Source of the DNA: a virus
Length of the DNA stretch: 64,000 bases
Reading direction: 5' to 3' (one strand)
IMG/VR virus record: IMGVR_UViG_3300049218_000083
Span: 62,001 to 126,000 of that record
Numbering within the stretch: the first letter of the stretch is position 1; each line of letters starts with the position of its first letter. This document shows positions 33,005 to 52,040 of this stretch, in pieces. Under the pieces are notes generated by a model, which did no database searches, had not been told where the DNA came from, and worked only from the letters and a program-made list of their open reading frames with translations. Position numbers and translations under genes: made by a program.

Positions 33005-33081
33005 TGGCGCGCGAGGCGGGCATCGAACCCGCAACCTTCAGTTTTAGAGACTGCGCTCTAGCCAAGTTGAGCTACACGCGC
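33005..33081 (-). tRNA. tRNA-Sup(CTA), amber suppressor
   Basis: Class I tRNA with encoded CCA, D-arm AGCTC...GAGC, T-loop TTCGATG. Anticodon arm CAGT-CTCTAAA-ACTG: loop positions give U33 and anticodon CUA, which reads UAG. Acceptor has one T-T mismatch (GCGCGTG/CTCGCGC), and 27-43 is G-A. Separate from the main cluster; a CTAAATA motif (33092-33098) lies upstream. Confidence 0.8.
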
Positions 33082-35793: not shown

Positions 35794-36204
35794 TTATTCC
35801 TCGTAGCGAGTGCTTCCGCCACCGAAACCGCTGAGCGAAGAAATCGTGTCAGCCAGTTCGCGCTCAGAAACGACGTCAGTCTTGGCTACGTCCAAGTCGT
35901 CGGCGATCGTAGAAATTGCGGCGACGACATCCTTCTTCTTTTCAGTCTTAGGAGTAGAACTCTTCGATCCCTTGCGAAATTCCGGGACGGTGATCTCGGA
36001 CGCATTCACCAGCTTGTACGCGGTGACATTATTGCCGTCCTTGACCGACTCGAACTTGGCTTTGAACTTCTTGGTCAACTTGTGAATGTACACAGCGACC
36101 GAGGAAGTGCTAATATTCATCGCCGAAGCGATAGTGCCGACTTCAACAGCCGTGCCACTCTTCAGCAACTGGAACAACCGAAAATGACGTGTTTGCTTAA
36201 CCAT
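35794..36204 (-). CDS. Winged-helix DNA-binding protein
   Basis: 136 residues. Residues 1-70 form a helix-turn-helix/winged-helix: RLFQLLKSG, VGTIASAMNISTSSVAVYIH, KLTKKFKAKFESVK. It resembles small phage regulators that bind DNA through an N-terminal HTH. The remainder is a linker plus a short acidic helix. Likely transcriptional regulator. Confidence 0.7.
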   Translation of the reverse strand: MVKQTRHFRLFQLLKSGTAVEVGTIASAMNISTSSVAVYIHKLTKKFKAKFESVKDGNNVTAYKLVNASEITVPEFRKGSKSSTPKTEKKKDVVAAISTIADDLDVAKTDVVSERELADTISSLSGFGGGSTRYEE

Positions 36205-36242
36205 AAATGTACCTCTGTTTCAATAATACCTGTTTCAAATTG

Positions 36243-36758
36243 CTATCGCTGACTTTTGTCGATGCAGAATCTCGATGGCTTTTGCGCGTCTGCATCGGTC
36301 AGACCATTCATATGGTTAGTCTGCACGAAATTCTCTTTCTGGTCTGGACGCATATCTGAGTCATCGTCAAGAATAACATAACTCTTAATCTCGTCACCGA
36401 GTAGATCCATCCAACGCTTGATCTCATCGCCGCGTATGGACGACATCTCGAAACCATCGACCATCTTACCTCGGGGAGTTTTGTCGATGACCTTGCTGGA
36501 AGCTAACTCGCCACCTGCAGTTTTGATGTAGCCACGAATCTCAGCCAAAGGATGCAGAATTCTCCAGGTGGAACTGATCACGATCTCGACGTCAGGGTGA
36601 GCGACCATGATCTTCTCGAGATGGGCGACTGCTTCTGGATCGAATTCGGCTTCATCGCGCCACATGAAAGTCTTACCTTCTTCTTTCAGCTTCTGACGCT
36701 TCATGTACCACTTGGTACTATTCAGCACGCCATCGATGTCGAGGAACAAAACCTTCAT
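36243..36758 (-). CDS. HAD-family phosphatase
   Basis: 171 residues. HAD motif I FLDIDGVLN (residues 4-12), motif II IVISSTWR, a Lys in the middle, and a motif III-like ILDDDSDM are present. The DxDGVLN...STWR pattern is that of the HAD domain found in Swiss Army Knife RNA repair proteins. It may remove phosphates from nucleic acid ends or nucleotides. A metallophosphoesterase, ligase and P-loop kinase lie nearby. Confidence 0.8.
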   Translation of the reverse strand: MKVLFLDIDGVLNSTKWYMKRQKLKEEGKTFMWRDEAEFDPEAVAHLEKIMVAHPDVEIVISSTWRILHPLAEIRGYIKTAGGELASSKVIDKTPRGKMVDGFEMSSIRGDEIKRWMDLLGDEIKSYVILDDDSDMRPDQKENFVQTNHMNGLTDADAQKPSRFCIDKSQR

Positions 36759-36952
36759 GGGTACTTCCTCCGAATGTACTCTGCGACTTCTTCCTTCCCC
36801 ATTGGCAACTCATTTGGTTGGATCCATTCGGCGAAGTCGTCGACGATCTGCCAACCAGCCAGGAAGTATCTCATCGCGCATGCCCAGAGCATTCCGAGCA
36901 GCATGAACGGCACGAAAATGATGTACAGAACGATAGCCAGAAAGTTCTTCAT
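36755..36952 (-). CDS. Small membrane protein
   Basis: 65 residues with one long hydrophobic segment (FLAIVLYIIFVPFMLLGMLW) at the N-terminus and a soluble acidic tail. No family recognised. Overlaps the HAD gene start by four bases. Confidence 0.65.
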   Translation of the reverse strand: MKNFLAIVLYIIFVPFMLLGMLWACAMRYFLAGWQIVDDFAEWIQPNELPMGKEEVAEYIRRKYP

Positions 36953-37545
36953 GCGTCCACCTTTAGATTGTTGGCAAGCAACATCATGATGTCATAGGCG
37001 CAGTCATGTACTGGATCGTGCTTCTGAACGATGAACCGATTGAAGTTCGGGACATCACAGTATCCGCCTGAAGAGCCATCAACGATCAGGTCAACCGCTG
37101 TTCGAACGTCACGCCAGTTGGAGAAGGGAATGAGGATCTCCTGACCTGCGGAACGGCAAAGGCTGTCGAGCACGATACCATCGAGAGCACCACGTGCCCA
37201 GAACACGACGTCATCGTTCTTGCGTGTCTCTGGCTTCAGCTGGCAGTAAGTTCGCAGGGCATTCAGGCCATCCACAGCCGAAACATCTGTAGGATAGACA
37301 GTCAAAGACTTGTCCTTGATGATCTGAGGACGCTTGCGCCACCATTCCATCGTTTCGGCGTCAACATGACGCTTGTAGACTTTGATCTGCTCTTCGACCT
37401 TGAACTTCACGAACACTGCGCGCTCGAGAAGATCCTGATAGTTTGGCTTTTCGTCGAGTTTGAACTCGATGGCAGCAACCGAAAGAACAACAGCGTTGCT
37501 CTCGATAGATGCGCACTCGATATCGACCATGTATTGACGTGTCAT
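36949..37545 (-). CDS. dexA: Exonuclease DexA-like (3'-5', RNase H fold)
   Basis: 198 residues. DEDD-type pattern: MVDIECAS with Asp8/Glu10, FWARGALDGIVLDSLC, and a final VHDCAYDI. The ETMEWWRKR segment is typical of T4 DexA and Rv2179c-like exonucleases. It likely degrades host DNA or RNA from 3' ends. Overlaps its neighbours by four bases on each side. Confidence 0.8.
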   Translation of the reverse strand: MTRQYMVDIECASIESNAVVLSVAAIEFKLDEKPNYQDLLERAVFVKFKVEEQIKVYKRHVDAETMEWWRKRPQIIKDKSLTVYPTDVSAVDGLNALRTYCQLKPETRKNDDVVFWARGALDGIVLDSLCRSAGQEILIPFSNWRDVRTAVDLIVDGSSGGYCDVPNFNRFIVQKHDPVHDCAYDIMMLLANNLKVDA

Positions 37546-38111
37546 TCTTCGTCCTTGCTGTGGTGTTGTCGGATCTCGAGTCGGTCCAAGTGACGCTTGA
37601 TTTCATCCATCGGATACAGCCGATAGTCGCCATAACTAAAAGTCGGCGAGTCAACGCAGACATTGGCGATGCGACCCTCGACGCCAGACAGCTTCTCATG
37701 GATGTGACCATGGAGATGATACGCACCACGAGCCATCTTGTTCCATTCCTGGATGGGATAGTGGAACAGAATCCAGTTGCCACCGGGAACCGTCAGTTCC
37801 TTGTATTCCTGAATCGTCGTGAACTTGTTGCGCAGCTTCTCGTCCTGACGAATCTCGCGGTCATGGTTGCCGTAGATCAAGTGCTTTTTGCCTGGCAGCT
37901 GATCCATGATCCGTTTGGCTTTGTCAGCCTTGCAGAAAAACCCATCACCCAGGATGAAGACGTCATCTTCTGGAGTGACCTGTTCCTGCCACTTTTCAAT
38001 CATCTTTCGGTCCATGACTTCGATGTTGGCATCGGGCCGAGTCGCAGGACAGAACCTGTGGATGTTGGTGTGGGAGAAATGATTGTCGGAAGTGAAGAAG
38101 ATTTGACTCAT
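37542..38111 (-). CDS. Calcineurin-like metallophosphoesterase
   Basis: 189 residues. Metal-binding motifs in order: FFTSDNHFSH, FILGDGFF, LIYGNHD, ILFHYP, and LHGHIHEK. These match small phage/bacterial phosphoesterases. Possible substrates are nucleotides or nucleic acid ends; the sequence does not settle it. Confidence 0.85.
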   Translation of the reverse strand: MSQIFFTSDNHFSHTNIHRFCPATRPDANIEVMDRKMIEKWQEQVTPEDDVFILGDGFFCKADKAKRIMDQLPGKKHLIYGNHDREIRQDEKLRNKFTTIQEYKELTVPGGNWILFHYPIQEWNKMARGAYHLHGHIHEKLSGVEGRIANVCVDSPTFSYGDYRLYPMDEIKRHLDRLEIRQHHSKDEE

Positions 38112-38155
38112 AGGCTCATAATATAAAATGTACCACGCAAAATGTAAAGGCTATC

Positions 38156-38338
38156 TTAAACCTCTTCTATCGTGATCTTGTGTCCAGCCCAAACGTAGAC
38201 ATCGGTGCTTTCTCCAGGAAGGAGTGATGCCAATGCCACACTCTCGATGTTGTTTGCGTCAGCACGCTTGACAATCACATTATGGTTGTCAGATGCAGTG
38301 TTGCTGGATTCATTGATAATCTTAACCTTGGTGGTCAT
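38156..38338 (-). CDS. Small hypothetical protein
   Basis: 60 residues, beta-rich (VKIINESSN..HNVIVKRADA, ESTDVYVWAGHKITIEE). No family recognised. Coupled to the glycosyltransferase stop. Confidence 0.6.
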   Translation of the reverse strand: MTTKVKIINESSNTASDNHNVIVKRADANNIESVALASLLPGESTDVYVWAGHKITIEEV

Positions 38339-39345
38339 AGCGAGTTGATATCCTCATTTCTAGAACGCAAGTATACGTCAAACTCGCGCTTCAATTCTGG
38401 TTTGTGTGAAGCAAATTCAAGAACGCCAAAGCTGTTTTTGTGAAGATCAGTGTATGGATCAAACTGGTGCTTCAGGAACATATCCCAACGACCGACATAC
38501 TGACGATCAGCCTTTCGACCATGCCAAAAGTGCTCGATGGTTCCTTGCATAAATCCAATTTCGTAATTGATAAACTTGACTGCACGATCTTTCCATGACT
38601 GGAGAGCGTGAAGGTAGTTAGGATGCGTTCCGCCTGGGTGAGAATACTCAACCTTGTTCACCATAGCCAACGCCATGTGATGATCGCCAGATCCCATTCC
38701 ACCCAACTCGAACAACCCACCGATCTTGTCTAGCGCACTTCTACGATACGCCCAGGCATAACCAGTGTGAGGATATGTGTGAGGACCGCCATCGAACTTC
38801 CAGAACTTCTTTCCGTTTGGAACGACTGGGTGTCCATGAAGGAATTGCTTTGCGAATGAGCTATGGACATCCAAGTGCTCATCGTTTGGACCAAGATCAT
38901 ACGCAGTATCCCAAGGTTGGATGACTGGGTAAAGCTGAAGAGCATTCAACACGTCTTGAGCCCAGGTTGGCTTACGAAACGTCACATCCGCATCAGCGGT
39001 CATGATGTATTTTGCGTCATGTGGGAGACGTGAAATACCAATGTTCATCAGGTTTTCTTTGTTCCAAGCAAGTGTTTCAGCTTTTACACCGATGTGTGTT
39101 ACACCAGGAGTTCCGGTACACTGGAATGGGCGATCACCGTTGACGCACTCGACTACAGTCAGATTGACACCCGCAGCGACCATGGCTGCTTCGAATGCTC
39201 TGTAGGTTGCGATACGACTTGCCCACAGAAGTGGGTTGTAGATGACTGTCACTACATGTAACAGTTTTGGGTCCATTAGACCACTGCCACTGAATGAAAT
39301 CGTACCGGGCACAGATTTCTTGACGCTGCCAGTATCGTATGACAT
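38335..39345 (-). CDS. Glycosyltransferase-like protein (GT-A fold)
   Basis: 336 residues. LHVVTVIYNPLLWASRIATY at the start of the fold, IMTADADVTFRKP as the DxD-type metal motif, and HTGYAWAYRRSALDKIGGLF followed by GSGDHHMALA as acceptor/GGxGxxD-like region fit family-2-like glycosyltransferases. The substrate (phage DNA base, capsid or host surface) is unknown. A CTAAATA motif lies about 30 bases upstream. Confidence 0.8.
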   Translation of the reverse strand: MSYDTGSVKKSVPGTISFSGSGLMDPKLLHVVTVIYNPLLWASRIATYRAFEAAMVAAGVNLTVVECVNGDRPFQCTGTPGVTHIGVKAETLAWNKENLMNIGISRLPHDAKYIMTADADVTFRKPTWAQDVLNALQLYPVIQPWDTAYDLGPNDEHLDVHSSFAKQFLHGHPVVPNGKKFWKFDGGPHTYPHTGYAWAYRRSALDKIGGLFELGGMGSGDHHMALAMVNKVEYSHPGGTHPNYLHALQSWKDRAVKFINYEIGFMQGTIEHFWHGRKADRQYVGRWDMFLKHQFDPYTDLHKNSFGVLEFASHKPELKREFDVYLRSRNEDINSL

Positions 39346-39398
39346 TATGAACTCCGAGGGATTATTTGCTTTCCTTCTATTTAGTTCATGTCAACGCG

Positions 39399-39416
39399 AT
39401 GCTGTATTTACAGCAT
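39399..39416. terminator. Perfect hairpin between NAMPT-like and glycosyltransferase genes
   Basis: ATGCTGTA-TT-TACAGCAT, an 8-bp stem with a two-base loop, lies 20 bases after the NAMPT-like stop. No U-tract is visible; it may be a weak terminator or a regulatory stem. Confidence 0.45.
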
Positions 39417-39435
39417 TATTTCTAAGAACGACGTT

Positions 39436-40935
39436 TCACCTACGAATGTTGGCACGAACCTCGCCAACCGTCCACTTCTTGTGGAACATACCATTACGCC
39501 AGACCACGGCAAGGTTGTCATGCTTGCTGAGAGCCGCCTGTCCAGCCTTGTCCAACTGGTCCTTGGCATGGAACGGTTCGATGTTACCGTCACCCAGAAC
39601 CACGATGCGACCCTTGGCACTCTTCTTCACGCCACTGTCGGTCTTCGGATCCTTGAACAGCATATGCTCTTTCCCACCCACGACGGCTGCTGTAGCCTTC
39701 ATTGCGAAACCATACGTGTCACGAGTGTTGTACTCGTAGAAGTATGAGCCGAGTCCCAACACCACGTTGGTGCTGGCGAATCCTTTCGCTTCCAATCGCT
39801 GGAAGATTTCCTGGGCTCGCTCGTAGGTGATGGAGTCACCGTAGATCGCACCGATATGGCTGTCGAGCACCTTGAAACCCTTCTCATTGACAGTTCCACC
39901 GAAGATGTCCCACAGAGCCTCGACAACACCCTTTTGGATCAAGGAGTCACGCAGTGGCAATTCGTTCAGGTCCGGACGCGTGTATCGATGGTCACCACAA
40001 AGGATGTCGACCGGATCTCCACTGTCTGGGCGGATGACAGTCTTACCGTCACGCGCAAGGATTTGGTCCTTCAGTCTGGGTAGGATGTGCCCGATGACGT
40101 GCCACAGGTCCCAGGTGTCGCTTACAATCGACACGATGCCTTGTGGGTACAGGCTGAGCAACCGCGAGTAAGTCTCTTCCTCATCGGTCTCACCACCAGC
40201 GCACATGACCGAATGCTCAGTCGCTGGAACAGACATGCCGAGTAGTGGCTCATTGCCACCATAGTAATACTTCTCGAGCAACTCGAGAGCCGGTAGAGTG
40301 TCGGTGCCGGTGAATGACAACAGGTGACCTGCTCCACTCATGGCCGCATCCTCAATGCCGCTCATGCCGCGGAATGAGAAGTCATGACCTTGCCAGTCGA
40401 CAAAAGCCGGATCTCCAGTCACTCGGGCGAAGCGATCGAACATGGCACGCATACGATGAGCATGAGTCGCGCTGGTGCAACCTTTCCAGATCAGGTTGGA
40501 AAGCATGCTCTCGAAGTAGTTCGTGACCCAGGCGAAATCGCTATGGGTAGACTCGATGGTGAACATCGGAACACGAAGCGGAACACGCGTGCCTTCTGGC
40601 ACAGCGCGGAACTCGAGAGGAACATAACCCAAATCATGCAGAGCAGCGATGTGGTCGACACCAATGCTGTTCGGGCCGAAGTAGCCGTTCAAACGCTTCT
40701 GATACTTCTCGAGCACAGTCTGCTTGTGAGCATCGAAGAATGTCTCATTGGCCAACTCGATGAAGTATGCCTGAAGAACATACTGCAGAATGAAGAACAC
40801 GACGCTGTCAACACCCTGGATGCGCGAGTTGCGTGCGGTCCAGTTGGAATAGACGTTCTGTGTCTTGTTTGGATACTGTCGACGATGATCCAGCTTGTAG
40901 CCATCGGCCAGAGTGATGAAATCAAACTTGTGCAT
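39436..40935 (-). CDS. nadV: Nicotinamide phosphoribosyltransferase-like (NadV/NAMPT family)
   Basis: 499 residues, full length for NAMPT. The N-terminus LADGYKLDHRRQYP and NWTARNSRI, the DFSFRGMSGIEDAAMSGAGH block, and VIRPDSGDPVDILCGD, VLGLGSYFYEYNTRDTYGFA are diagnostic. NAMPT makes NMN from nicotinamide and PRPP. Adjacent to a PRPP-synthetase-like gene with a three-base gap, it may be Namat of the NARP1 NAD-rebuilding pathway, which uses ADP-ribose pyrophosphate. The donor cannot be told from sequence. Confidence 0.93.
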   Translation of the reverse strand: MHKFDFITLADGYKLDHRRQYPNKTQNVYSNWTARNSRIQGVDSVVFFILQYVLQAYFIELANETFFDAHKQTVLEKYQKRLNGYFGPNSIGVDHIAALHDLGYVPLEFRAVPEGTRVPLRVPMFTIESTHSDFAWVTNYFESMLSNLIWKGCTSATHAHRMRAMFDRFARVTGDPAFVDWQGHDFSFRGMSGIEDAAMSGAGHLLSFTGTDTLPALELLEKYYYGGNEPLLGMSVPATEHSVMCAGGETDEEETYSRLLSLYPQGIVSIVSDTWDLWHVIGHILPRLKDQILARDGKTVIRPDSGDPVDILCGDHRYTRPDLNELPLRDSLIQKGVVEALWDIFGGTVNEKGFKVLDSHIGAIYGDSITYERAQEIFQRLEAKGFASTNVVLGLGSYFYEYNTRDTYGFAMKATAAVVGGKEHMLFKDPKTDSGVKKSAKGRIVVLGDGNIEPFHAKDQLDKAGQAALSKHDNLAVVWRNGMFHKKWTVGEVRANIRR

Positions 40936-40938
40936 GAT

Positions 40939-41778
40939 TTAGAAATCCTCGGTAATGATCTTGTTGATGATCTGGTAAAGCGGAATCACTTGCAACCGTG
41001 GGTCATGGTACGGATTGGCTGGCAAGTGAGCGAAACTGTCTGTCGTATAGATAGAACTGATCGTTTTGCTGATAGCATCTACACCTTTCGAGAAAATTCC
41101 GTGCGACACCCATAGCCATAGGTTGCTACTTCTGGCTGCGGGATCTTTCTCGAATTCCTGTGCCAAGAGATTAAAAGTCCCACCGCCATCACAAATATCG
41201 TCCACGATCAAATAGTTTCCTGGGCCAGGCAAAGCCGGCATGGAGAAACCAGTGAACTTTCCGGTGGCGAAGTCACGCTGTTTGTCGCACTGAATGACTT
41301 CCTTTATTGAACTCTTGGCCTCTGCGAAATTCCTTGCTCTTTCAACTGCACCATGATCAGGAGCGATCACGGTGAACTCTTTCTCAAAATTGAAACTCAT
41401 GTCACTCGGCATGAAATTGTAGTCAACCAGACCCGAAGTCACTGGAGAGTGTGCATCGAATGTGTAAATCTGGTCAGCCACCTGGTCAAACAACTCCATC
41501 ATGATGTTAGCCGTGATTGGAGTCTGACCATCGCTGCGATCCTGACGAGCAGCTGGAAAATATGGCACGAATAAAGAGGCGCGACCTTGTCGACGAACAG
41601 CATCGAGGACACAGATCGCAAGACCAATATCATTCCAGGTCCGTGGTTTCAGGAACAACAGTGCATTACCAAAGTCCTTTGGGATACGCGCATGCGGTTC
41701 ACCGCCAGGGAAAAAGAAGGTCTCAATCCCAGTCGCCTTGTAGTTGTCACTGTCAATTACTGTCACGGAGCCTTTCAT
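40939..41778 (-). CDS. prs: Ribose-phosphate pyrophosphokinase-like (Prs/Adps)
   Basis: 279 residues, shorter than cellular Prs (about 315). Motifs: FPGGEPHARIP, YFPAARQDRSDG, TFDAHSPVTSGLVD, and the PRPP loop YLIVDDICDGGGTFNLL. It should transfer pyrophosphate from ATP to a ribose phosphate. Next to the NAMPT-like gene it either supplies PRPP or, as in NARP1, turns ADP-ribose into ADP-ribose pyrophosphate. Confidence 0.9.
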   Translation of the reverse strand: MKGSVTVIDSDNYKATGIETFFFPGGEPHARIPKDFGNALLFLKPRTWNDIGLAICVLDAVRRQGRASLFVPYFPAARQDRSDGQTPITANIMMELFDQVADQIYTFDAHSPVTSGLVDYNFMPSDMSFNFEKEFTVIAPDHGAVERARNFAEAKSSIKEVIQCDKQRDFATGKFTGFSMPALPGPGNYLIVDDICDGGGTFNLLAQEFEKDPAARSSNLWLWVSHGIFSKGVDAISKTISSIYTTDSFAHLPANPYHDPRLQVIPLYQIINKIITEDF

Positions 41779-41809
41779 AATCTATCCTCAGTTACGTGCC
41801 AATATCTTA

Positions 41810-42394
41810 CTATGGTTTCTTCGTAATAACCCGATCGATCAAACCATACTGCTGAGCCTCGAGACTGGTCATGAAATTGTCCCGATCGCTGTCCTTCTCA
41901 ACCTGTTCCGCTGGCTTGCCGGTATGGCTGCCCAGAATTTCATTCAGGCGAACCTTGGTCTTCTCAACATCGCGAGCATGGATCAGGATGTCCGATGCCT
42001 GACCATAGAACCCAGCGCTCGGCTGGTGAATCATGATCTTGGAGTTGGGAAGAGCGAACCGTTTGCCCTTGGCACCTGCCGCAAGCAACACTGCACCCAT
42101 GGACGCAGCAACGCCAAGGCAGATAGTTGAGATCGGCGACCTGATGAACTGCATCGTGTCGTAGATGGCCATCCCGGAACTCACAGAGCCACCTGGTGAG
42201 TTGATGTAGAGGCAAATATCCTTGTCGTCGTTCTCATTCTCGAGATACAACAACTGGGCGACGATGGAGTTGGCCACCATGTCATCGATGCCACCAGTCA
42301 GAAACACAACGCGCTCTTTCATCAGGCGCGAGTAAATGTCATAGCCACGTTCACCACGTGGACCAGACTCAACAACCATTGGGACAAGATTCAT
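41810..42394 (-). CDS. clpP: ClpP protease
   Basis: 194 residues, the standard ClpP size. Catalytic triad visible: Ser98 in [11 protein letters not shown], His123 in IMIHQPSAG, Asp172 in [28 protein letters not shown] is the oligomerisation block. A phage ClpP would need the host ClpX or ClpA. With a tmRNA whose tag ends in LAA encoded 11 kb away, clearance of tagged peptides is one possible job. It could also remove host proteins or act in capsid maturation. Confidence 0.92.
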
Positions 42395-42588
42395 ATTGCT
42401 TCCTCAGTAAGTGATGATTTGTATTGTACCTGACCAACAACCACTTGCGTTACAACAAGTGGTGCTGGCCTCGGGAGAACTGTGCAGGTGACGGTAAACT
42501 GAGCATGCGCTGTTTTGGCATGCGCGCAACCAATCAGAACGAGGCAGTTGATTGCGATGGAGCCGATGATGCAGAGAATCCACTTCAT
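42391..42588 (-). CDS. Small lipoprotein or exported protein
   Basis: 65 residues. Hydrophobic N-terminus with a lipobox-like LIGC (Cys21): [17 protein letters not shown]. The mature part is about 45 residues. Possibly an Rz1-like spanin or an envelope lipoprotein; there is no proline-rich signature strong enough to decide. Confidence 0.55.
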
Positions 42589-42746
42589 CGCGAAAAGATC
42601 TTCGGCTTGGTCATGAAGATGAGCAATATGACCCAGAAAGTGTCAAAGATCAATCCCCACCAGTTGTGCTTGAAGAAGTCGTCAGCCATGAAGCCGATAC
42701 AAATCCCAATCAGGATCAGTTGGATATCTCTATGCATGCTGTTCAT
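42585..42746 (-). CDS. Small two-segment membrane protein
   Basis: 53 residues from ATG 42746. Two hydrophobic stretches (LILIGICIGFMADDF; WGLIFDTFWVILLIFM). Its TGA overlaps the next ATG, and its ATG overlaps the stop of the frame before it. Could be holin-like, but size alone suggests this. Confidence 0.6.
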   Translation of the reverse strand: MNSMHRDIQLILIGICIGFMADDFFKHNWWGLIFDTFWVILLIFMTKPKIFSR

Positions 42747-42889
42747 TGTCTGTTCTGCCATTCACACTCAACGCGGCACCAAGAACCCTGCCAGTCAGCG
42801 CGACGACCATACTTTCGGTGCAGGATCTTCATGTCATCGAGGTTGTCAGCGGTGATGTACGTCCAGATATCATGCCAGACGACTCCATA
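42743..42889 (-). CDS. Open frame continuing after the stop of the zinc protein
   Basis: Directly after the TGA at 42892-42890, and in the same frame, 48 sense codons read YGVVWHDIWTYITADNLDDM, then KILHRKYGRRADWQGSWCRV and ECEWQNRQ, ending at TGA that overlaps the next ATG. It looks coding, yet the only ATG is at residue 20. Either it is a 29-residue product from that ATG, or a readthrough/lost-start extension. Confidence 0.4.
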   Translation of the reverse strand, partial: YGVVWHDIWTYITADNLDDMKILHRKYGRRADWQGSWCRVECEWQNRQ

Positions 42890-43579
42890 TCATTGATTTG
42901 CCCTCTTCATGTTCTTCATGGCGGTGAAGTCCGCCAGCGCAGCCTCGGCTATCTTCTCATCAAACACCGGCAGGTCGTCGAACTTATCCTTGCCCCACGG
43001 GAGTCCGTAGTGTTCAGCGCAGTCAGGACCATAACCCATGGCCTTGGATTCCGGCGTCGACAACTGGCGGGAGCAGAAGCAGCACTTGCTGAGCAGCTTG
43101 CCGTGCTCTGCAGCCATCTTGGCCGGATCCTCGTTGAACTTGGTGAGGAGGGTCAGCAGTTCCTGCTTCACTTCGACACCACGCTTGATGACAGTCACCG
43201 AACTGTCGAGGTTGATTCGGCCCATATAGCCACGGTTGTCAGTCACGAGGCTCAACGCACCGGGATGCTTGGCGCGATCACTGGCGACGCTCATCTTGAT
43301 CTCTTCGTTACCGAATTTGAGCAGCACCTTGGGAGCCTGGAGACCAGCCTTCTTAGCACGACCCATGAGCGCGAAGATTTTGTCAAAGACAACCTTGGTC
43401 ACGGTAGTGGTGCTGGGGATGCCCAGCGTCTGCTGAAGAAGCTTGGTGACCCACTCGGCTTGCTTGGCAGACGGCGGATTCGCGTAAGCGATACGACGAG
43501 CGAACTGAGCATCACAAGCGGCAACCAGCTCACTTTCTACGAGAGACTGGAGTTGGATTTGTTCATCACTGTAAGCCAT
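42890..43579 (-). CDS. Zinc-motif protein of unknown function
   Basis: 229 residues. The C-terminal third has CCFCSRQLSTPESKAMGYGP DC, a C-x2-C...G-x-GP-x-C element found in small phage zinc proteins (DUF6011-like, from memory). The N-terminus is helical. Function unknown. Confidence 0.7.
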   Translation of the reverse strand: MAYSDEQIQLQSLVESELVAACDAQFARRIAYANPPSAKQAEWVTKLLQQTLGIPSTTTVTKVVFDKIFALMGRAKKAGLQAPKVLLKFGNEEIKMSVASDRAKHPGALSLVTDNRGYMGRINLDSSVTVIKRGVEVKQELLTLLTKFNEDPAKMAAEHGKLLSKCCFCSRQLSTPESKAMGYGPDCAEHYGLPWGKDKFDDLPVFDEKIAEAALADFTAMKNMKRANQ

Positions 43580-43678
43580 TTTCTATCCTCGTTTCTTACT
43601 AACCACGCACCCATTGTACCGGCGCATGTTACGAAAAGAAAGACCACTCGTAGAGTTCTTGACCGAACTGTTAACTGG

Positions 43679-43882
43679 TTATCGCTTTTTCACCCTCGCT
43701 CCGTTGCGCCATACATATTCAGGCTTTGAATCCTCTTTCTTGACCTGTGGCTCGTCAAATTCAGTCGCCATCTCGATGAAAATCTCTTCGTCTTTCATCG
43801 AACCTAGCTGCGCCATGGCGAGCGCTCTGTCCATCATGGATCGAATCTTGGCCGCCAGCTCCTTTGCCTTTTCTTCCAACAT
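43679..43882 (-). CDS. Small charged protein
   Basis: 67 residues: helical N-terminus (EEKAKELAAKIRSMMDRALA), acidic middle, basic end (NGARVKKR). Its start overlaps the ligase stop by one base. No family recognised. The 100 bases downstream to 43580 hold no gene I can see. Confidence 0.6.
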   Translation of the reverse strand: MLEEKAKELAAKIRSMMDRALAMAQLGSMKDEEIFIEMATEFDEPQVKKEDSKPEYVWRNGARVKKR

Positions 43883-44778
43883 TACATGTCACTCCTGTCG
43901 CGGAAGCCCAAGTAGATGGGGAAACGCGGCGCATCCTTGTTTCCACCGTCGAAGAACTTGTACTTCACGATCTTACCAATCAGGTTCTTGCGGTCAGCCC
44001 ACAGAGCCTTCCGGGTCGCGATGTCGAACCCAGAGCCGATATTGAACACGGCACCACCCTCGCAGTTCTTCACGATCAGCGCGCCGAGCATGTCCTGCGG
44101 GATCATGCCTTCTTTGTGTGACGAGCGCTCGGTATGGCCGAAAGCATCGGTGGTGGCCTGGTTGCCGTTTTTCAGCAACTCCTCGAAGCCAGTGATCTCA
44201 GCCTCGGCATCGCTGAAACGCTTCAGCTTGATCATCCCACCCTCGCTGGTCGTCGATCGACCATGCTTGTAGGCACCGTTGACCGAGCGGCAAATCAAAC
44301 CCTCGAACCCTTGACCCAGGCATTGGCGCTCATAGGTGTCCAGTTCGTTCTGGGTCGAGATCATGGTCTGTTCGACCAACACGCCAGGATACGGAAGAGC
44401 ACCGTCGCTCTGCAACTTGATGAGCGAAGCGACGCGCTGCTTGAAGCCAAGCGTCTTCTGGTTCAGGTTGTCGAAAATCCAGTACTGGAAGTCCGGCTCG
44501 CCGTCCTCGGACATGACCGCCGACATCGTCACGCGGTAGAAGTCCGGCGCTCCCGGATCACCAACACCCAACTCACCGTCGAAGCCATCGAACTTCCCAG
44601 TGCCAAGCAGCTTCTGCACATGGCGATTCGGAATCGGTTTCCAGTTGCGGCTCATCGCGATACCACCAACGACGATACAGCGGATTCCGTCCAGCTTCGG
44701 TGAAGCGATCAGCGGGAACTTGAAGGTATCCGGTGCCTTGGCGGCCAGCATCGGTTTGATTGCAGCAGGAAGGCTCAT
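43882..44778 (-). CDS. ATP-dependent DNA ligase
   Basis: 298 residues from ATG 44778, which overlaps the upstream stop (ATGA). The adenylated Lys28 is in SPKLDGIRC (motif I), with FDGFDGEL (motif III), YWIFDNL (IIIa), EGLICRS (IV) and GGMIKLKRF (V). A C-terminal OB domain follows. It resembles the compact T7-like phage ligases. It would seal nicks in replication and repair. Confidence 0.9.
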   Translation of the reverse strand: MSLPAAIKPMLAAKAPDTFKFPLIASPKLDGIRCIVVGGIAMSRNWKPIPNRHVQKLLGTGKFDGFDGELGVGDPGAPDFYRVTMSAVMSEDGEPDFQYWIFDNLNQKTLGFKQRVASLIKLQSDGALPYPGVLVEQTMISTQNELDTYERQCLGQGFEGLICRSVNGAYKHGRSTTSEGGMIKLKRFSDAEAEITGFEELLKNGNQATTDAFGHTERSSHKEGMIPQDMLGALIVKNCEGGAVFNIGSGFDIATRKALWADRKNLIGKIVKYKFFDGGNKDAPRFPIYLGFRDRSDM

Positions 44779-44948
44779 TTCATCTCCTTGGCTTCGCCAC
44801 CATGGCGAGTTGCGTAATCTTTGGCGCGCTGCTCGGTAATGCCGAACATACGCTGGGACATGTGGGGTCCGATCCACTGCCAGTTTGTCGGAGCCGACTG
44901 CATCGAGGCGGCAATCTGGCGGAATCCATCAAGAGTCACTTCATTCAT
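44775..44948 (-). CDS. Hypothetical protein
   Basis: 57 residues from ATG 44948, preceded by CAGGAG. Begins MNEVTLDGFRQIAASMQSAP. Coupled to the ligase. No family recognised. Confidence 0.55.
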   Translation of the reverse strand: MNEVTLDGFRQIAASMQSAPTNWQWIGPHMSQRMFGITEQRAKDYATRHGGEAKEMK

Positions 44949-44977
44949 CACGAATCTCCTGTTACCTGAGACCAACT

Positions 44978-45433
44978 CTACGCGGACTCGGCGACTAAAG
45001 AAAGAGGCGCAGTTATCGTTTCAGGGATCGGCCAAATGTATGGCAAATCTGGCGACTCAGTCCAGCCGAATGTGGAGTAATGCTCGGGAAACTTCCGTAG
45101 AAGATTGCTACGATGAGATGCGTGGAAAGCCTCGTCACCGATCCAGCTTGGGAGCCGGTATTCGACCGGCAACGCGATGTTCTCGAAGATCGGCAGTTGG
45201 GTGTCCTTGTAGCCGCGACGAATCCACTCGCGACACATGACCATCCCATACTCACACAGTGCGCGAGAGTGGCCACGCCACATCTTTGCTGCAGGGTGCT
45301 GGGACCATCCGTTAGAAGTGCCGAGCGTCACGCGCAGCAGTTGCATGGTCTCGATGCGTTGCTTCCCAAGTCGCCGGTAGTCGAGACACTCGGCTGACTT
45401 TTGGAAGTCAGAATACGGAAGGAACGTCTGCAT
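44978..45433 (-). CDS. MSMEG_6728-like / pyrimidine-dimer glycosylase-like protein
   Basis: 151 residues from ATG 45433. MQTFLPYSDFQKSAECLDYR, RLGKQRIETMQLLR, HPAAKMWRGH and YGMVMCREWIRRGYKD are the pattern of a bacterial/phage family often annotated as MSMEG_6728-like or pyrimidine dimer DNA glycosylase. A DNA-repair role is by annotation habit, not proven. Adjacent to the ligase locus. Confidence 0.7.
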   Translation of the reverse strand: MQTFLPYSDFQKSAECLDYRRLGKQRIETMQLLRVTLGTSNGWSQHPAAKMWRGHSRALCEYGMVMCREWIRRGYKDTQLPIFENIALPVEYRLPSWIGDEAFHASHRSNLLRKFPEHYSTFGWTESPDLPYIWPIPETITAPLSLVAESA

Positions 45434-45635
45434 CTTCGCCGTCCGAACCATCCAGTTCATCCTCGAAGCGCACGTCGCACTTCTCACCCCAGATTTGGCC
45501 GAAGGCTCGCTTCAGCTGCTCTGTTATGACGGCGCGATCATTGGTGTCCATTTCGCTGACATCCATGTCAACCACCGCGTCCTGGCCAGGAATTCCGACC
45601 GACCAGTCACCTGTCGTTTGGACGTAGATTTTCAT
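45408..45635 (-). CDS. Acidic hypothetical protein
   Basis: 75 residues, with a DVSEMDTNDRAVITEQLKRA helix and an acidic tail (DELDGSDGEDAD). No family recognised. Confidence 0.6.
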   Translation of the reverse strand: MKIYVQTTGDWSVGIPGQDAVVDMDVSEMDTNDRAVITEQLKRAFGQIWGEKCDVRFEDELDGSDGEDADVPSVF

Positions 45636-46060
45636 GAGCGATCCGCCGGAGTCAGGAACGCGTCGAGGATGTTACCACCGACAGGCTTCTCACCGAAGTA
45701 CTGGGCGACCTGGTCGGCATTCATGCGAAACATCTTGCCGTTACCGTCTTTCACCGCGCACTTGGAGCGACCAGTGAAACCCTCGAAGGTGAAATTGCCG
45801 TGGCGAGGAGTGCTGAAGGTTTTGCCGAGATGAGCCTCGGTCAAACCGAACTTCCAACCGTTCCGCTTCAGATTGAAGAGAAGCTTCGGATCGACACCTC
45901 CAGTTTCGGCAGAGTCACCGAACTGCGCCGATAGCTTAAAGGTCGTCGGGTTGTAGCGGATAGAAGTCGGACTGAGCGTCAAACCGTGAGCCTTCGCTAT
46001 AAGCTGAAGAGCCTCGGTGATGTCCTTGTGGATCGCTTTAACTTTCGCTTCGGTCAACAT
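45632..46060 (-). CDS. Hypothetical protein
   Basis: 142 residues. A helical N-terminus, then a beta-rich body (KTFSTPRHGNFTFEGFTGRS) and a basic patch. No family recognised; DNA/RNA contact is possible. Confidence 0.65.
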   Translation of the reverse strand: MLTEAKVKAIHKDITEALQLIAKAHGLTLSPTSIRYNPTTFKLSAQFGDSAETGGVDPKLLFNLKRNGWKFGLTEAHLGKTFSTPRHGNFTFEGFTGRSKCAVKDGNGKMFRMNADQVAQYFGEKPVGGNILDAFLTPADRS

Positions 46061-47115: not shown

Positions 47116-47442
47116 TTACTTCACCTGGACGTTCATCGCTGACGTTTTGTTCTGGGTCACAAATCCGACATTGCCTTTGGTCACATGAATGACTGTGGCT
47201 GTCTTCCAATGAAGTTTGGTCACGTTGGAGCTGCTACCATTCAACGGAACTCCAAATACCAACTCAACTCGATCGTTCTTTTTGAGTCCCAGGCTTTCGT
47301 CAAGGTGAATCAAGCAGCCACCAATGCTGACGTTGACAACCTTACCGACCTGGCGTTTCTCACCAATTTTGCACAGGACAAAAATCCGTCCAACAGGTAG
47401 AAACCGTTGGTTGAGTCTTTTCTCTTCGCCCGAATAAGTCAT
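47116..47442 (-). CDS. PilZ-domain protein
   Basis: 108 residues from ATG 47442, whose ATG overlaps the CCA end of tRNA-Thr. EEKRLNQRFLPVGRI carries an RxxxR-like motif and VVNVSIGGCLIHLDE the N/DxSxxG motif of c-di-GMP-binding PilZ domains. A phage PilZ could read or buffer host c-di-GMP. Binding must be shown; the motif is RLNQR, which fits RxxxR exactly. Confidence 0.75.
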   Translation of the reverse strand: MTYSGEEKRLNQRFLPVGRIFVLCKIGEKRQVGKVVNVSIGGCLIHLDESLGLKKNDRVELVFGVPLNGSSSNVTKLHWKTATVIHVTKGNVGFVTQNKTSAMNVQVK

Positions 47443-47516
47443 GGAGCTCCCTTGCGGAATCGAACCGCATTCTCTCGTGTACGAAACGAGTACATCGCCA
47501 GCAATGCTTAGGGAGC
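47442..47516 (-). tRNA. tRNA-Thr(CGT)
   Basis: Acceptor GCTCCCT/AGGGAGC, anticodon arm CTCGT-TTCGTAC-ACGAG, encoded CCA. Closely similar to tRNA-Thr(TGT) at 55651. Its 5' end overlaps the stop region of the upstream protein gene and its CCA overlaps the PilZ ATG. Confidence 0.9.
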
Positions 47517-48050
47517 GTTGCTCAATTGAACCTTCAATGTCAAAGGGTAGATCTTGTTGAGCTGAAGGCTGGTCTTTCGAGTGTAAGGAATCTTTACCCA
47601 ATGATAGTCAGACTTCAACTGTTTTTCGATCGCTTCGTATTTAGCGCACTCATCGACATAGCGAGTTTGCTCAGCTGCGTTCTTGGCATCAGCATCCGGA
47701 TCTCCAGGACCATGGGTCCGAGTGATATAATCCCAAATGCCAGTTTTGCTGTACCACTGACGCGTTGGATACTTGTGGCCCAACTTCTGCATCGTGTTGT
47801 AATCCCACTCTTTGCCAGTCACCTTGTGGACAAACACGCGGCGATACAGTTGCTGTTCAACGCAAACAGAAATTTCCTGCGGACGATCCTTGGTTGCTTC
47901 CCGGACAATACGATATCCGAGATAGATACCCTTCGCTGCGTATGCGCTGCCTGTACACTTGGTCACAGACAAGATCGGATCGCCTGGATTGATCACGTCA
48001 CCATGATCATTGGTGAACGGATTTTTCAAAATCGGTTTTAGTTTCGCCAC
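47508..48050 (-). CDS. Hypothetical protein
   Basis: 180 residues. Starts KPILKNPFTNDHGDVINPGD, then a WDYNTMQKLGHKYPTRQWYS block. Its layout resembles the shorter protein at 49097-49498 (both start basic, then TIQPGQEVIAV-like strands, then a W-containing basic stretch), so they may be paralogues. The stop is inside the tRNA-Thr acceptor stem. Function unknown. Confidence 0.65.
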   Translation of the reverse strand: MAKLKPILKNPFTNDHGDVINPGDPILSVTKCTGSAYAAKGIYLGYRIVREATKDRPQEISVCVEQQLYRRVFVHKVTGKEWDYNTMQKLGHKYPTRQWYSKTGIWDYITRTHGPGDPDADAKNAAEQTRYVDECAKYEAIEKQLKSDYHWVKIPYTRKTSLQLNKIYPLTLKVQLSNAP

Positions 48051-48069
48051 GTCATTCTCCTCTTACAAG

Positions 48070-48330
48070 TCAAAATCGGCACTATCCCTATAGCCAGGTT
48101 TCTGTCTGTGTTGAGCCTATCCCAACACTCATCCATCATTCGCCTCAGGCTTTCGCCTGGTCACCAATTGTGACTGCCGCAACCCGACCTCATAGGGTGA
48201 AGCTTCCCTCGGTCTGTTAGCGTTGCTGGCCACGTTGCTAGTGCTAACGACTTTCGTCTCCTAACAGCTTCGAGCCAGTCCTGAACTTCCTCTAGGGTTT
48301 CCGCCCCAGCGATGGATCGGGATAGTGAAA
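48070..48330 (-). ncRNA. rnpB: RNase P RNA, compact bacterial type
   Basis: P1: CACTATCCC (48327-48319) pairs perfectly with GGGATAGTG (48088-48080). P2: ATCCATC (48317-48311) with GATGGAT (48137-48131). P4: AGTTCAGG (48287-48280, within GAGGAAGTTCAGG, cf. conserved GAGGAAAGUCC) with ACCTGGCT (48099-48092), leaving the universal bulged U. P19: GTGTTG/CAACAC. The 3' core GACAGAAACCTGGCTATAGG matches CR-V (ACAGAACCCGGCUUA), and CGAATGATG matches UGAAUGA. The short form lacks some peripheral helices. It would trim 5' leaders of the phage tRNAs, which all encode CCA, a contact of RNase P. Confidence 0.9.
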
Positions 48331-48332
48331 CC

Positions 48333-48698
48333 TTAAACTTTCTTGGCCTTTTGAACTGCTTTCTTCGCAGCTTCAATTCTAGCGCGTTCTTTCTTAACCA
48401 CCTTCTCCATCTCGAGTATCTTGGCCTTTGCTTGAAGCATGATCTCGATGGCCTTGTCGATCTTCTCGAGTTTCATCTCGGAGTCGGAGTCGTATTCTTC
48501 GAAGTCCCAAGTGATCACGCGATTGCAATCACCAAGACTCATGGTGAAGTCAACGTTGATGTAATCCTTGTCTGGCGAATCAGCCTTGCTGACATAGACG
48601 TGCGCTTTGTAGCGAATGAAGCTGCCGGTGTCGAGTGGATCGATAAAGTCTCCACCAGTGACACGGATCAGGTCATCGCGATTCTTTTTCTTCGGCAT
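48333..48698 (-). CDS. Hypothetical protein
   Basis: 121 residues. N-terminal beta-like part (FIRYKAHVYVSKADS, YINVDFTMSLGD) and a Lys-rich coiled-coil tail (KVVKKERARIEAAKKAVQKA). Ends three bases before the RNase P RNA 5' end, so both may be on one transcript. Confidence 0.65.
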   Translation of the reverse strand: MPKKKNRDDLIRVTGGDFIDPLDTGSFIRYKAHVYVSKADSPDKDYINVDFTMSLGDCNRVITWDFEEYDSDSEMKLEKIDKAIEIMLQAKAKILEMEKVVKKERARIEAAKKAVQKAKKV

Positions 48699-49074
48699 CT
48701 ACTTCTCCATCTGGTAAAACTGCGTCCTTGGGAACTTCTTTCCAAAGACCATCATCTTTGACTTCCACTTTGATTTGTCGCATCTGGCGCGCAACATTGT
48801 CCTGGATCACTGCCTCGGTGCCGTTGCGTCGCATGATTTCCATCTTGTGCCACACCTTGAATTTATCAGTGTTGCACATACGTTCAAAGGCAGTGCTGCG
48901 GTTTTGGCGCTGTACTCTAGAGTCTTCTGCATACCCATGGGCACCACTGGCTCGGTGGGTACAGTGAACCGCTGAGTTCGTCTTATTCTTCTTCTGACCA
49001 CCATTGCCGGTGCCGCGAGTGTAGGACCAATCGCAGTCGGCAGCGGTAACAGAGAAGAGTAACTCGCGAGCCAT
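48673..49074 (-). CDS. RF-1 domain (GGQ) peptidyl-tRNA hydrolase-like protein
   Basis: 133 residues. SYTRGTGNGGQKKNKTNSAV carries the GGQ motif at residues 25-27 and the following H-CTHRASGAHGYAEDSR, QRQNRSTAFERM blocks of class I release factor catalytic domains. It lacks codon-recognition domains, like ArfB or truncated RF homologues, so it probably frees peptides from stalled ribosomes. Its location next to RNase P RNA and with a tmRNA elsewhere suggests a rescue function. Confidence 0.85.
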   Translation of the reverse strand: MARELLFSVTAADCDWSYTRGTGNGGQKKNKTNSAVHCTHRASGAHGYAEDSRVQRQNRSTAFERMCNTDKFKVWHKMEIMRRNGTEAVIQDNVARQMRQIKVEVKDDGLWKEVPKDAVLPDGEVDAEEKESR

Positions 49075-49096
49075 TATGGATTCAATCGATTCTGCA

Positions 49097-49498
49097 TTAA
49101 CTTGATGGCGTCAGCCGGTTGCGACGAAACAGCAATGTTATATCGTCCTTGTCAACTCGAAAGATTTTCTTGTTGACGAATGCACGATTTCCGTCGTAAC
49201 CAGTCTCAACACGCTTGCGAACAACGTCAGGAGCCGTATTCCACCAATCCTTAAGCACTTTTCCAGTCGCTGCGTCCTCGAAGTGGATCTTCTTCTTGCG
49301 AACTTGCAAACGAACTGACGTGGTCTTGTTTGTAGTTGTGTTCACAAGAATGCCAAGGAACTTACCCTTGGTGATTTTAATGCCACTCTTGGCTGAAGTT
49401 ACAGCAATCACTTCTTGACCAGGTTGAATGGTCTGATTGATTTCGTTGGTGTAAGCAACTGCGAGAAACTTGGGACGCTTGTAATTCCGCTTGCTCAT
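49097..49498 (-). CDS. Hypothetical basic protein
   Basis: 133 residues. KFLAVAYTNEINQTIQPGQE, VIAVTSAKSGIKITKGKFLG, then DWWNTAPDVVRKRVETGYDG. Possibly paralogous to 47508-48050. No family recognised. Confidence 0.65.
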   Translation of the reverse strand: MSKRNYKRPKFLAVAYTNEINQTIQPGQEVIAVTSAKSGIKITKGKFLGILVNTTTNKTTSVRLQVRKKKIHFEDAATGKVLKDWWNTAPDVVRKRVETGYDGNRAFVNKKIFRVDKDDITLLFRRNRLTPSS

Positions 49499-49506
49499 AA
49501 TGTATA

Positions 49507-49555
49507 TCCTTGACGATATCTATCGAAGTAAACGTGGTTGTCCTTGACGATATCT
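49507..49555. repeat. Two direct copies of TCCTTGACGATATCT
   Basis: The 15-mer occurs at 49507-49521 and 49541-49555, 34 bases apart, upstream of a minus-strand gene start. Could be an operator or a duplication scar. Confidence 0.5.
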
Positions 49556-49580
49556 TTGATGTCGGATGAGAGGAACAAGA

Positions 49581-49748
49581 TTAGACATCCTTCCGGTTGG
49601 CTGGACGAGGCAACGGGACACCACGGCGAGTGATGTAGTCCTGAGCAAGTTTGTCCTGCTCAGCCTTGAGCAGTCTTTCGATCGTTCGCCGCTGGATGCA
49701 CTTGTCGCACATACACTCTGGCTTGTGGATGTCTAATGCTTGACTCAT
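49581..49748 (-). CDS. Small CxC/CxxC protein
   Basis: 55 residues from ATG 49748: MSQALDIHKPECMCDKCIQR with a Cys cluster, then a helical basic part. The frame is open further upstream but that part overlaps a tRNA-Ser leader region. No family recognised. Confidence 0.5.
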   Translation of the reverse strand: MSQALDIHKPECMCDKCIQRRTIERLLKAEQDKLAQDYITRRGVPLPRPANRKDV

Positions 49749-49879
49749 TTCACGAACTCTCTTGATATACGCAGGAGGACAATTTAGAAACGCTAGATAC
49801 AAGTCTAAATTGTTTCCTCGTAAAAGAAACGTCAAATTTCGACGTTCCATCATGACAAATGACATGTGCAATTTTAATC

Positions 49880-49967
49880 TGGCGGAGAGCAGAGGAATCG
49901 AACCCCAACCCATTACTGAGTCCCTTTCTTTAGCAAAGAAGCGTGAGCCCAGCCCACGTTACTCTCC
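49880..49967 (-). tRNA. tRNA-Ser(GCT), copy 1
   Basis: Class II tRNA with a long variable arm, acceptor GGAGAGT/GCTCTCC, anticodon arm TTCT-TTGCTAA-AGAA, encoded CCA. The stop TAA of the next protein gene lies in its acceptor stem. Confidence 0.9.
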
Positions 49968-50330
49968 AGATCTCTTTCTGTTGTCTTGATTGACTTTCTT
50001 AGTGATGTCAATGAAGTCAGGATACATTTTCTTGAACGTTTTGACAGCGTCATGAATGTTACCAGCATACCACTCGGAGTTCTTTCCAGTTCCTGAACCT
50101 TTGAATGGCAACCATGCGTTGTGCATAGCCTTCTCAACTTCCTTGTGGTCTTCCATTTCTGCGACCAAAAGAACTTCGGCTGTCATGCCCGGAAACACTT
50201 TGTAGCGGTTCAGGGATTTCTTCAATTCCAACAAGTCACGGCTGGTCTTATCGACTCTGCCGAGCTTAAAGAAGGTCTTCCGTCCTGGATGTTTGATGAT
50301 GTAAATTGAACCACTGGTTTTCTTCATCAT
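49959..50330 (-). CDS. T5orf172/GIY-YIG-like domain protein
   Basis: 123 residues. SGSIYIIKHPGRKTFFKLGR, VDKTSRDLLELKKSLNRYKV, then EVEKAMHNAWLPFKGSGTGK and SEWYAG fit the T5orf172 (MUG113-like) GIY-YIG relatives. Nuclease activity is uncertain. Ends within the tRNA-Ser gene. Confidence 0.7.
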   Translation of the reverse strand: MMKKTSGSIYIIKHPGRKTFFKLGRVDKTSRDLLELKKSLNRYKVFPGMTAEVLLVAEMEDHKEVEKAMHNAWLPFKGSGTGKNSEWYAGNIHDAVKTFKKMYPDFIDITKKVNQDNRKRSGE

Positions 50331-50372
50331 CGAACCTCTTTATTCTTAGCTCGACAGAGTCTCATTTAGACT

Positions 50373-50960
50373 CTAGTGCTTATTATACGCTGGATTCTTC
50401 CAGACTCGGCTGTTCTTAGGAATCGTTGCAAGCAAGTAGTCCATTTGATCAGCCAGCACTTTCCGGTTCTTCAACAGCAACTTCTCCTGAAGAGATGGTG
50501 CGTATGGAACGTAAAGAAGATGCATTCCTGCTTCCTCTGGAGTCCTGTCAGCCTTACCATGGTTGCATGACTTACATGCAGTTACCGTGTTTGTCCAGAA
50601 GTGCCTTCCACCACGAGACTTTGGGTGCACGTGGTCGATGGTCAAGTGGTGATCCTTGAACTGGATTCCACAGTAAGCGCAAAGATGTGCGTCACGAGCG
50701 TACAGAATGTCACGCTCTGCGTACACGGTTTCACGAGTGTAGAAATCGTTGCCGAATACAGGACCAGTAACCATGATGATGCTTGACACTGTGACGACAG
50801 AAACATCGCCGTCGCCGTTCTTTCCGCCTGTATAGGTCTTGATTGGGGAACCAAGATCACACACGACTTTGTCACGAGCGTAGTAGCAACATCCAGTTTC
50901 TATGTCAGTCCAGTCACGTGGGTTGCCAGATTTGTCAACAATCAATACATCGAGAGACAT
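50373..50960 (-). CDS. HNH endonuclease
   Basis: 195 residues. Core CAYCGIQFKDHHLTIDHVHP, KSRGGRHFWTNTVTACKSCN, HGKADRTPEEAGM is the classic bacterial/phage HNH with two CxxC zinc pairs. The N-terminal 90 residues carry CCYYARDKVVCDLG and other unknown features. A CTAAATA motif (about 50991-50997) and GAGGAG site precede it. Unlike the tail-gene enzymes it lacks the HFDNC module. Confidence 0.85.
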   Translation of the reverse strand: MSLDVLIVDKSGNPRDWTDIETGCCYYARDKVVCDLGSPIKTYTGGKNGDGDVSVVTVSSIIMVTGPVFGNDFYTRETVYAERDILYARDAHLCAYCGIQFKDHHLTIDHVHPKSRGGRHFWTNTVTACKSCNHGKADRTPEEAGMHLLYVPYAPSLQEKLLLKNRKVLADQMDYLLATIPKNSRVWKNPAYNKH

Positions 50961-51005
50961 GGTAATCTCCTCTTTATCAACAACATAATGTATTTAGCAC
51001 GAAAC

Positions 51006-51080
51006 TGGAGTGGTCGACAGGATTCGAACCTGCATAGGACAGTTTTGCAGACTGCCGCGTGACCTTTCCGCCACGACCAC
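51006..51080 (-). tRNA. tRNA-Cys(GCA)
   Basis: Acceptor GTGGTCG/CGACCAC, anticodon arm CAGT-CTGCAAA-ACTG, T-loop TTCGAAT, encoded CCA. Confidence 0.93.
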
Positions 51081-51088
51081 GTTGACTC

Positions 51089-51415
51089 TTAGCGCGCCAG
51101 GATCAGATTTTGATTTGGCACATCAATCTTGCGCTTGCCAAACATACGTTCATGGTGAACGATAACCTGATCATCAGGCTTGGCAATGAATACGATCTTG
51201 TCCAGGAACAGAGGGACGGCACCGTCAACCAATGTTGCCCACGGAAGGAAACCTACACCGATTTTGACTTGACCTGTCTTAGGATCCGGTTCGCCTGGCT
51301 GCGGAACAATCATCACAGCTTCGTCAACCTCGACAATAGTCTCGCTGACATTCAGGACGCGGCAAAGAAGCTCTTCGCCAGAAACCAACTTCACAATCTT
51401 TACATCGTCACTCAT
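51089..51415 (-). CDS. Sm-like beta-barrel protein
   Basis: 108 residues. VKIVKLVSGEELLCRVLNVS, then EAVMIVPQPGEPDPKTGQVK and PLFLDKIVFIAKPDDQVIVH resemble small phage Sm/LSM-like proteins often seen in T4-like phages. Possible RNA-binding role, relevant beside the RNA genes. Family call from the pattern. Confidence 0.6.
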   Translation of the reverse strand: MSDDVKIVKLVSGEELLCRVLNVSETIVEVDEAVMIVPQPGEPDPKTGQVKIGVGFLPWATLVDGAVPLFLDKIVFIAKPDDQVIVHHERMFGKRKIDVPNQNLILAR

Positions 51416-51424
51416 GATATCCCC

Positions 51425-51586
51425 TTAAAATTTGAACCTGACCTGTAACGGCATTCGCTTGTCACAGTGAAGATGGACATTATGCTTATCATCGACCGCG
51501 CGTTCGCACAGGACAAAAACATTTTCTCTGGTGATTGCACAACCAGAGAAAATGAGCAGTATGACCAACAAAACTATGTTGCGCAT
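51425..51586 (-). CDS. Small lipoprotein
   Basis: 53 residues from ATG 51586: MRNIVLLVILLIFSGCAITR, a signal peptide with an FSGC lipobox. The mature part has two more Cys. Could be an outer-membrane spanin or superinfection factor; undecided. Confidence 0.6.
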   Translation of the reverse strand: MRNIVLLVILLIFSGCAITRENVFVLCERAVDDKHNVHLHCDKRMPLQVRFKF

Positions 51587-51621
51587 ACAATTATGATAAC
51601 CTGGAATTGACGATGGGGAAA

Positions 51622-51697
51622 TGGAGCGGATGATGGGACTCGAACCCACGACGTTTTCCTTGGCAAGGAAATGCAATTGCCGCTATGCGACATCCGC
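51622..51697 (-). tRNA. tRNA-Gly(GCC)
   Basis: Acceptor GCGGATG/CATCCGC, anticodon arm TTTCC-TTGCCAA-GGAAA, encoded CCA. Confidence 0.92.
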
Positions 51698-51703
51698 GAA
51701 AGG

Positions 51704-51852: not shown

Positions 51853-51881
51853 AGTGGTTGCGCGAAACATCTTTGTAAACC

Positions 51882-51956
51882 TGGTGCTCTCACTGAGAAT
51901 CGAACTCAGATCCCGTCCTTACCAAAGACGTATCTTGACCATTGGACGATAAGAGC
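51882..51956 (-). tRNA. tRNA-Thr(GGT)
   Basis: Acceptor GCTCTTA/TGAGAGC, anticodon arm CGTCT-TTGGTAA-GGACG, encoded CCA. Confidence 0.9.
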
Positions 51957-51960
51957 GAAC

Positions 51961-52033: not shown

Positions 52034-52040
52034 AAAATCT

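Follow-up and report, generated by a model that had tools for sequence, protein, structure and literature searches.

A predicted NARP1 module (Adps and Namat) in an uncultured T4-like myovirus lineage

What do two adjacent phage genes make when one resembles a PRPP synthetase and the other a NAMPT? In plain NMN salvage, a PRPP synthetase and a NAMPT make NMN from ribose-5-phosphate, ATP and nicotinamide, and the host NMN adenylyltransferase converts it to NAD+. In NARP1, an Adps and a Namat reach NAD+ by way of ADP-ribose pyrophosphate (ADPR-PP). Such a gene pair lies in the window, by which the whole 64,000-nucleotide stretch analysed is meant (bases 62001-126000 of the 166,743-base IMG/VR virus record IMGVR_UViG_3300049218_000083, which may be a fragment). 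A sequence-only reading had described NAMPT-like and PRPP-synthetase-like genes separated by three bases, and both are indeed intact minus-strand ORFs:

40939-41778, minus strand: Adps homologue (ADP-ribose pyrophosphate synthetase), first gene, 279 aa, ATG start; assigned from PHROG 619, tree, shared blocks and predicted fold
40936-40938, minus strand: three-base gap from the Adps stop to the Namat start; from ORF coordinates and junction sequence
39436-40935, minus strand: Namat homologue (nicotinamide ADP-ribose transferase), second gene, 499 aa, ATG start; assigned from phmmer, clamp and catalytic residues, tree and model

On the coding strand the junction reads ...GATTTCTAA ATC ATGCACAAG..., and sigma-70-like and terminator-like matches for the pair are no commoner than in shuffles. 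PHROG 448 ‘nicotinamide phosphoribosyl transferase’ aligns with the whole of the 499-aa protein (E 5e-190), which also has matches to Pfam NAPRTase and NAMPT_N. The PHROG family of the 279-aa protein is 619, ‘ribose-phosphate pyrophosphokinase’ (6e-54). Both PHROG matches are far beyond chance, and the generic family names that they bring, PRPP synthetase and NAMPT/NAPRTase, speak for plain NMN salvage.

Is the 499-aa protein a Namat or a NAMPT? The nicotinamide and ribose site is common to both enzymes (PMC12774641). In the Namat of SPbetaL1, the adenine of ADPR-PP is held by a loop residue, Arg40, and the helix aromatics F392 and Y396, with T398 and D400 (Lan et al., NAR 2026, PMC12774641). 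The changes R40A/F392G cost the SPbetaL1 enzyme much of its NAD+ synthesis but leave it able to make NMN. In the alignment, R38, Y398, Y402, T404 and D406 of the 499-aa protein occupy the places of this adenine clamp, positions 3 and 7 of the helix motif both being Tyr:

40822-40824, minus strand: codon for Namat R38, in the clamp loop, corresponding to Arg40 of SPbetaL1, which stacks on adenine; from the alignment, in which the two residues coincide
39718-39750, minus strand: codons for GSYFYEYNTRD (Namat residues 396-406), the selectivity-clamp helix motif; from the alignment to SPbetaL1 residues 390-400

The catalytic core is conserved (D11, Y13, F186, R189, D212, H241, R302, D304), and every residue class contacting NAD+ in the SPbetaL1 Namat is kept. 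The active-site comparison that the sequence-only reading had proposed thus finds both the Namat clamp and the catalytic residues of SPbetaL1 retained. By contrast, none of the six NAMPT controls (five phage NAMPTs and that of Xanthomonas campestris) has the clamp. Their residues at the three stacking places are V/K/T, G or A, and H/M/E/A/K, with D/N/T at the site of T404, and their helix motif is GGGLLQ, GAGLLQ or GGALLQ; this NAMPT-type GGxL/GGxLL motif is absent from the aligned 499-aa protein.

Two positions of the clamp motif are off consensus, F399 (usually Thr/Ser) and E401 (usually Gln/Asn), a combination found among the loci examined only here and in the relatives L019 and L020. The NAD+ contacts given for SPbetaL1 include neither of the two. 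In the clade formed by L019, L020 and this phage, F399 and E401 may have shifted or broadened the accepted donor, for example towards a modified ADP-ribose that one particular host defence produces, a notion that we regard as very improbable.

Among solved structures, the best phmmer matches of the 499-aa protein are 9W5X and 9W5W, the SPbetaL1 Namat (2e-160), and outside the Namat clade the best-placed NAMPT is that of X. campestris (2e-68). The AlphaFold2 model (pLDDT 88.9, pTM 0.88) has Namat as its best fold match (Z 46.7, 1.7 A over 477 residues); the Haemophilus ducreyi NadV scores Z 45.3 and NAMPTs about 40. With Z 46.7 against 45.3, the modelled fold alone tells Namat from NadV only weakly. 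The clamp stretch 401-406 is a low-confidence part of the model, and the clamp argument therefore rests on the alignment and not on the model.

A maximum-likelihood tree of 46 proteins places its seven NAMPT-type members on one side (100/100) and the 499-aa protein on the other with the Namats, in a 20-row subclade (100/100) that contains the DyoEdafos Namat, an enzyme that makes NAD+ in vitro (PMC13232231). L019 and L020 are the nearest rows. Does membership of the Namat clade settle the donor? The H. ducreyi NadV (9KE8, 9KEO) falls inside the clade, beside SPbetaL1 and a staphylococcal phage protein (98/97), and has been used for NMN production in E. coli (PMC6095924); membership is therefore no proof of ADPR-PP use. 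We found no statement in the literature on ADPR-PP use by this NadV. As a Namat-clade protein usable for NMN production it lends plain NMN salvage a second argument; Namat, too, yields NMN in vitro when supplied with PRPP (PMC12774641). NadV and the 499-aa protein are about 49% identical where they align, and have the Namat-clade backbone and the catalytic core in common. However, NadV lacks the clamp: the three places that stack on adenine hold Glu, Gln and Arg in NadV and R, Y and Y in the 499-aa protein, and NadV has Ala for Ser391. Since the 499-aa protein keeps what NadV is missing, the residue evidence agrees with the tree. The specificity argument is carried by the clamp residues, the clade alone being insufficient. 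For NadV itself, the missing clamp in a protein of the Namat clade suggests either that it went back from ADPR-PP to PRPP or that it is ancestor-like in having no clamp.

Is the partner an Adps or a PRPP synthetase (Prs)? We found no published Adps signature in the literature, and the assignment was judged by clade and shared blocks. A tree of 48 rows splits at 100/99 into nine Prs proteins (bacterial, plasmid-borne and from two phages) and a side that joins the 279-aa protein to the partners of Namats. Its flexible-loop block contains a Pro (PYFPAARQDR versus PYFGYARQDR in Prs), and its Adps-type blocks include HS for HA in TFDAHS, PDxGA for PDxGG, and KxRxxxTG. A further block, DDICDGGGTF, is that of the Adps set and not the typical Prs DDMIDTGGTL:

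41173-41205, minus strand: codons for VDDICDGGGTF (Adps residues 192-202); the aligned Prs block is VDDMIDTGGTL or similar

A small number of divergent Prs rows have single features of this kind, and it is therefore the blocks together, not any one residue, that carry the argument. The predicted model has a PRPP-synthetase fold (pLDDT 87), which is expected for an Adps. Against the PRPP-synthetase subfamily TIGR01251 the protein reaches 94.7 bits, below the 113-bit cut-off, and this score and the separation from Prs both count against plain NMN salvage. Lan et al. (PMC12774641) wrote before any Adps structure had been published, and we infer ADP-ribose as the probable substrate from clade, shared blocks and partner.

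Does the phage carry an NMN adenylyltransferase of its own? A NARP2-like pathway would combine a NAMPT with such an enzyme, and the NAMPT-like gene by itself fits the first half. However, PF01467, the NMN adenylyltransferase domain, has no match in the 166,743-base record, which is possibly incomplete, and the same search matches all three NARP2-type control phages and neither SPbetaL1 nor DyoEdafos. PF01467 also matches once in ICP1, and its presence alone is therefore no classifier. With the NAMPT-type GGxL motif absent as well, a NARP2-like pathway is the least probable explanation of all and extremely improbable. Two kinds of helper were also considered and rejected: a phage NMN adenylyltransferase, Nudix or macro-domain protein elsewhere in the record (none at E 0.001), and a third enzyme like RyDEP (a RyR domain turns up in the DyoEdafos positive control but not in the record). 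These absences hold for the record only.

The two genes at 40939-41778 and 39436-40935 are thus very probably a phage NARP1 module (Adps plus Namat), with reactions and a counter-defence role predicted from homologues. The NARP1 layout recognised in the sequence-only reading is borne out by R38, Y398, Y402 and T404, which set the second protein apart from the NAMPT controls, by a partner that groups with Adps and not Prs, and by a record without a recognisable NMN adenylyltransferase. Plain NMN salvage, which that reading had offered as the other possibility, has the clamp, both trees and the lack of a recognisable NMN adenylyltransferase in the record against it, and we consider it improbable. 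Of these two, NARP1 is on present comparisons the best-supported reading.

How closely does the pair resemble characterised systems? With the NARP1 of the Bacillus phage SPbetaL1 it shares gene order, adjacency, NAD+-contact residue classes, and the clamp Arg and aromatics. It differs in sequence identity (51% for Namat, only 24% for Adps), in F399/E401 for Thr/Gln of SPbetaL1, and in Ser368 for Ala362, Ser being usual in other Namats. The Mycobacterium phage DyoEdafos, both of whose enzymes have been tested biochemically (PMC13232231), shares the gene order and the larger Namat subclade (100/100). Unlike the pair in the window, which has no insert, its two genes are separated by RyDEP. The nrsAB genes of the Vibrio phage ICP1, which act against Nezha (PMC11559045), have the same two-gene order and the clamp motif, but identity is 45% for Namat and 29% for Adps, and Lys replaces the Arg of position 38/40.

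The association of the two genes extends to relatives. A search of IMG/VR with the NAMPT-like protein gave 80 loci, and 73 of them have an Adps match in the same stretch. Of the other seven loci, five lie at a contig end and begin with the Namat gene or close to it; the remaining two (L095 and L098) are NAMPT-like by motif and also without the clamp motif. GS[F/Y] is present at the clamp in 77 of the 80. Compared with L019, Namat has a pN of 0.14 and Adps one of 0.23, with pS about 0.85, synonymous sites being saturated; both genes are under purifying selection.

The surroundings are kept in part. A downstream metallophosphoesterase and exonuclease are retained in L019 and L020, and the ClpP near Adps is missing there. 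This ClpP is of the cellular type (PF00574 9e-83; its PRK00277 score exceeds the cut-off), and its gene (41810-42394, minus strand) stops 31 bases upstream of the Adps gene. It was rejected as a third component, the two nearest relatives having no ClpP match in the fetched stretch and L019 having another gene upstream of Adps. Directly downstream of Namat lies a 336-aa ORF (38335-39345, minus strand) with no Pfam, PHROG or NCBIfam match; in its place L019 has a different ORF, glycosyltransferase-like by eye.

Many relatives carry a gene between Adps and Namat, in the slot of RyDEP in DyoEdafos (L038:1343-1822; L047:3816-4277; L049:7510-7947; L058:7511-7945; L061:7189-7566; L066:7603-7986; L093:644-1051; L063:7504-7980; L070:6764-7081; L057:7187-7972; L069:7015-7983). 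The recurrent insert encodes a protein of 125-153 aa, HAD-like by eye (PHROG 1238). Others are macro-like by eye (PHROG 335 ‘phosphatase’) or nucleoside-deoxyribosyltransferase-like (PF15891), or encode a DUF1937/DUF4406 protein, a metallophosphoesterase or a zeta-toxin/NT5C-like fusion. They are candidate additional partners of NARP1 in handling ADP-ribose.

Which kind of phage carries the pair? The window contains myovirus baseplate genes, including one for a T4-type gp6-like protein. The best baseplate match is to Methylophilales phages, at only 39% over 69% of the query, and megablast with 36000-46000 of the window finds no near-identical cultured phage. The pair belongs to an uncultured T4-like myovirus lineage, and the structural genes of this lineage have only distant matches in cultured phages. 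The window also has 37 predicted tRNA genes, 36 of them in a minus-strand cluster (47442-57250) covering most amino acids. Away from that main cluster, a tRNA at 33005-33081 (minus strand; ARAGORN) with anticodon CUA, labelled Pyl, would read amber codons. A GMP reductase-like protein is encoded at 27399-28457, minus strand (PRK05096 389 bits versus a 397 cut-off; PF00478); to our knowledge, such proteins are uncommon in phages.

What would the NARP1 pair do during infection? By analogy with the tested homologues of SPbetaL1, DyoEdafos and ICP1, Adps would transfer pyrophosphate from ATP onto ADP-ribose, giving ADPR-PP, and Namat would join ADPR-PP to nicotinamide, giving NAD+. Both products of host TIR, SIR2 or SEFIR NADases could thereby be returned to NAD+ in two steps. 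SPbetaL1 NARP1 acts against Kongming (PMC12774641). Alternatively, a working NARP1 pair might serve general NAD+ upkeep in infection more than counter-defence, for example by replacing NAD+ used by ADP-ribosyltransferases. Bacterial chromosomal NARP1 modules with an open role exist (PMC12774641), and no host defence is tied to this phage, both of which suit such a role; the homologous ICP1 pair, however, is needed against Nezha and costly without it (PMC11559045). We hold general upkeep to be rather unlikely, and a counter-defence role for this NARP1 pair would be the preferred prediction.

NARP1 has already been described, and the pair adds one further clear but ordinary case, now in an uncultured T4-like myovirus lineage. 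The clampless H. ducreyi NadV in the Namat clade gives a usable rule, to check clamp residues as well as clade. In many deposited records NARP1 goes unrecognised behind generic annotation as PRPP synthetase plus nicotinate/nicotinamide phosphoribosyltransferase.
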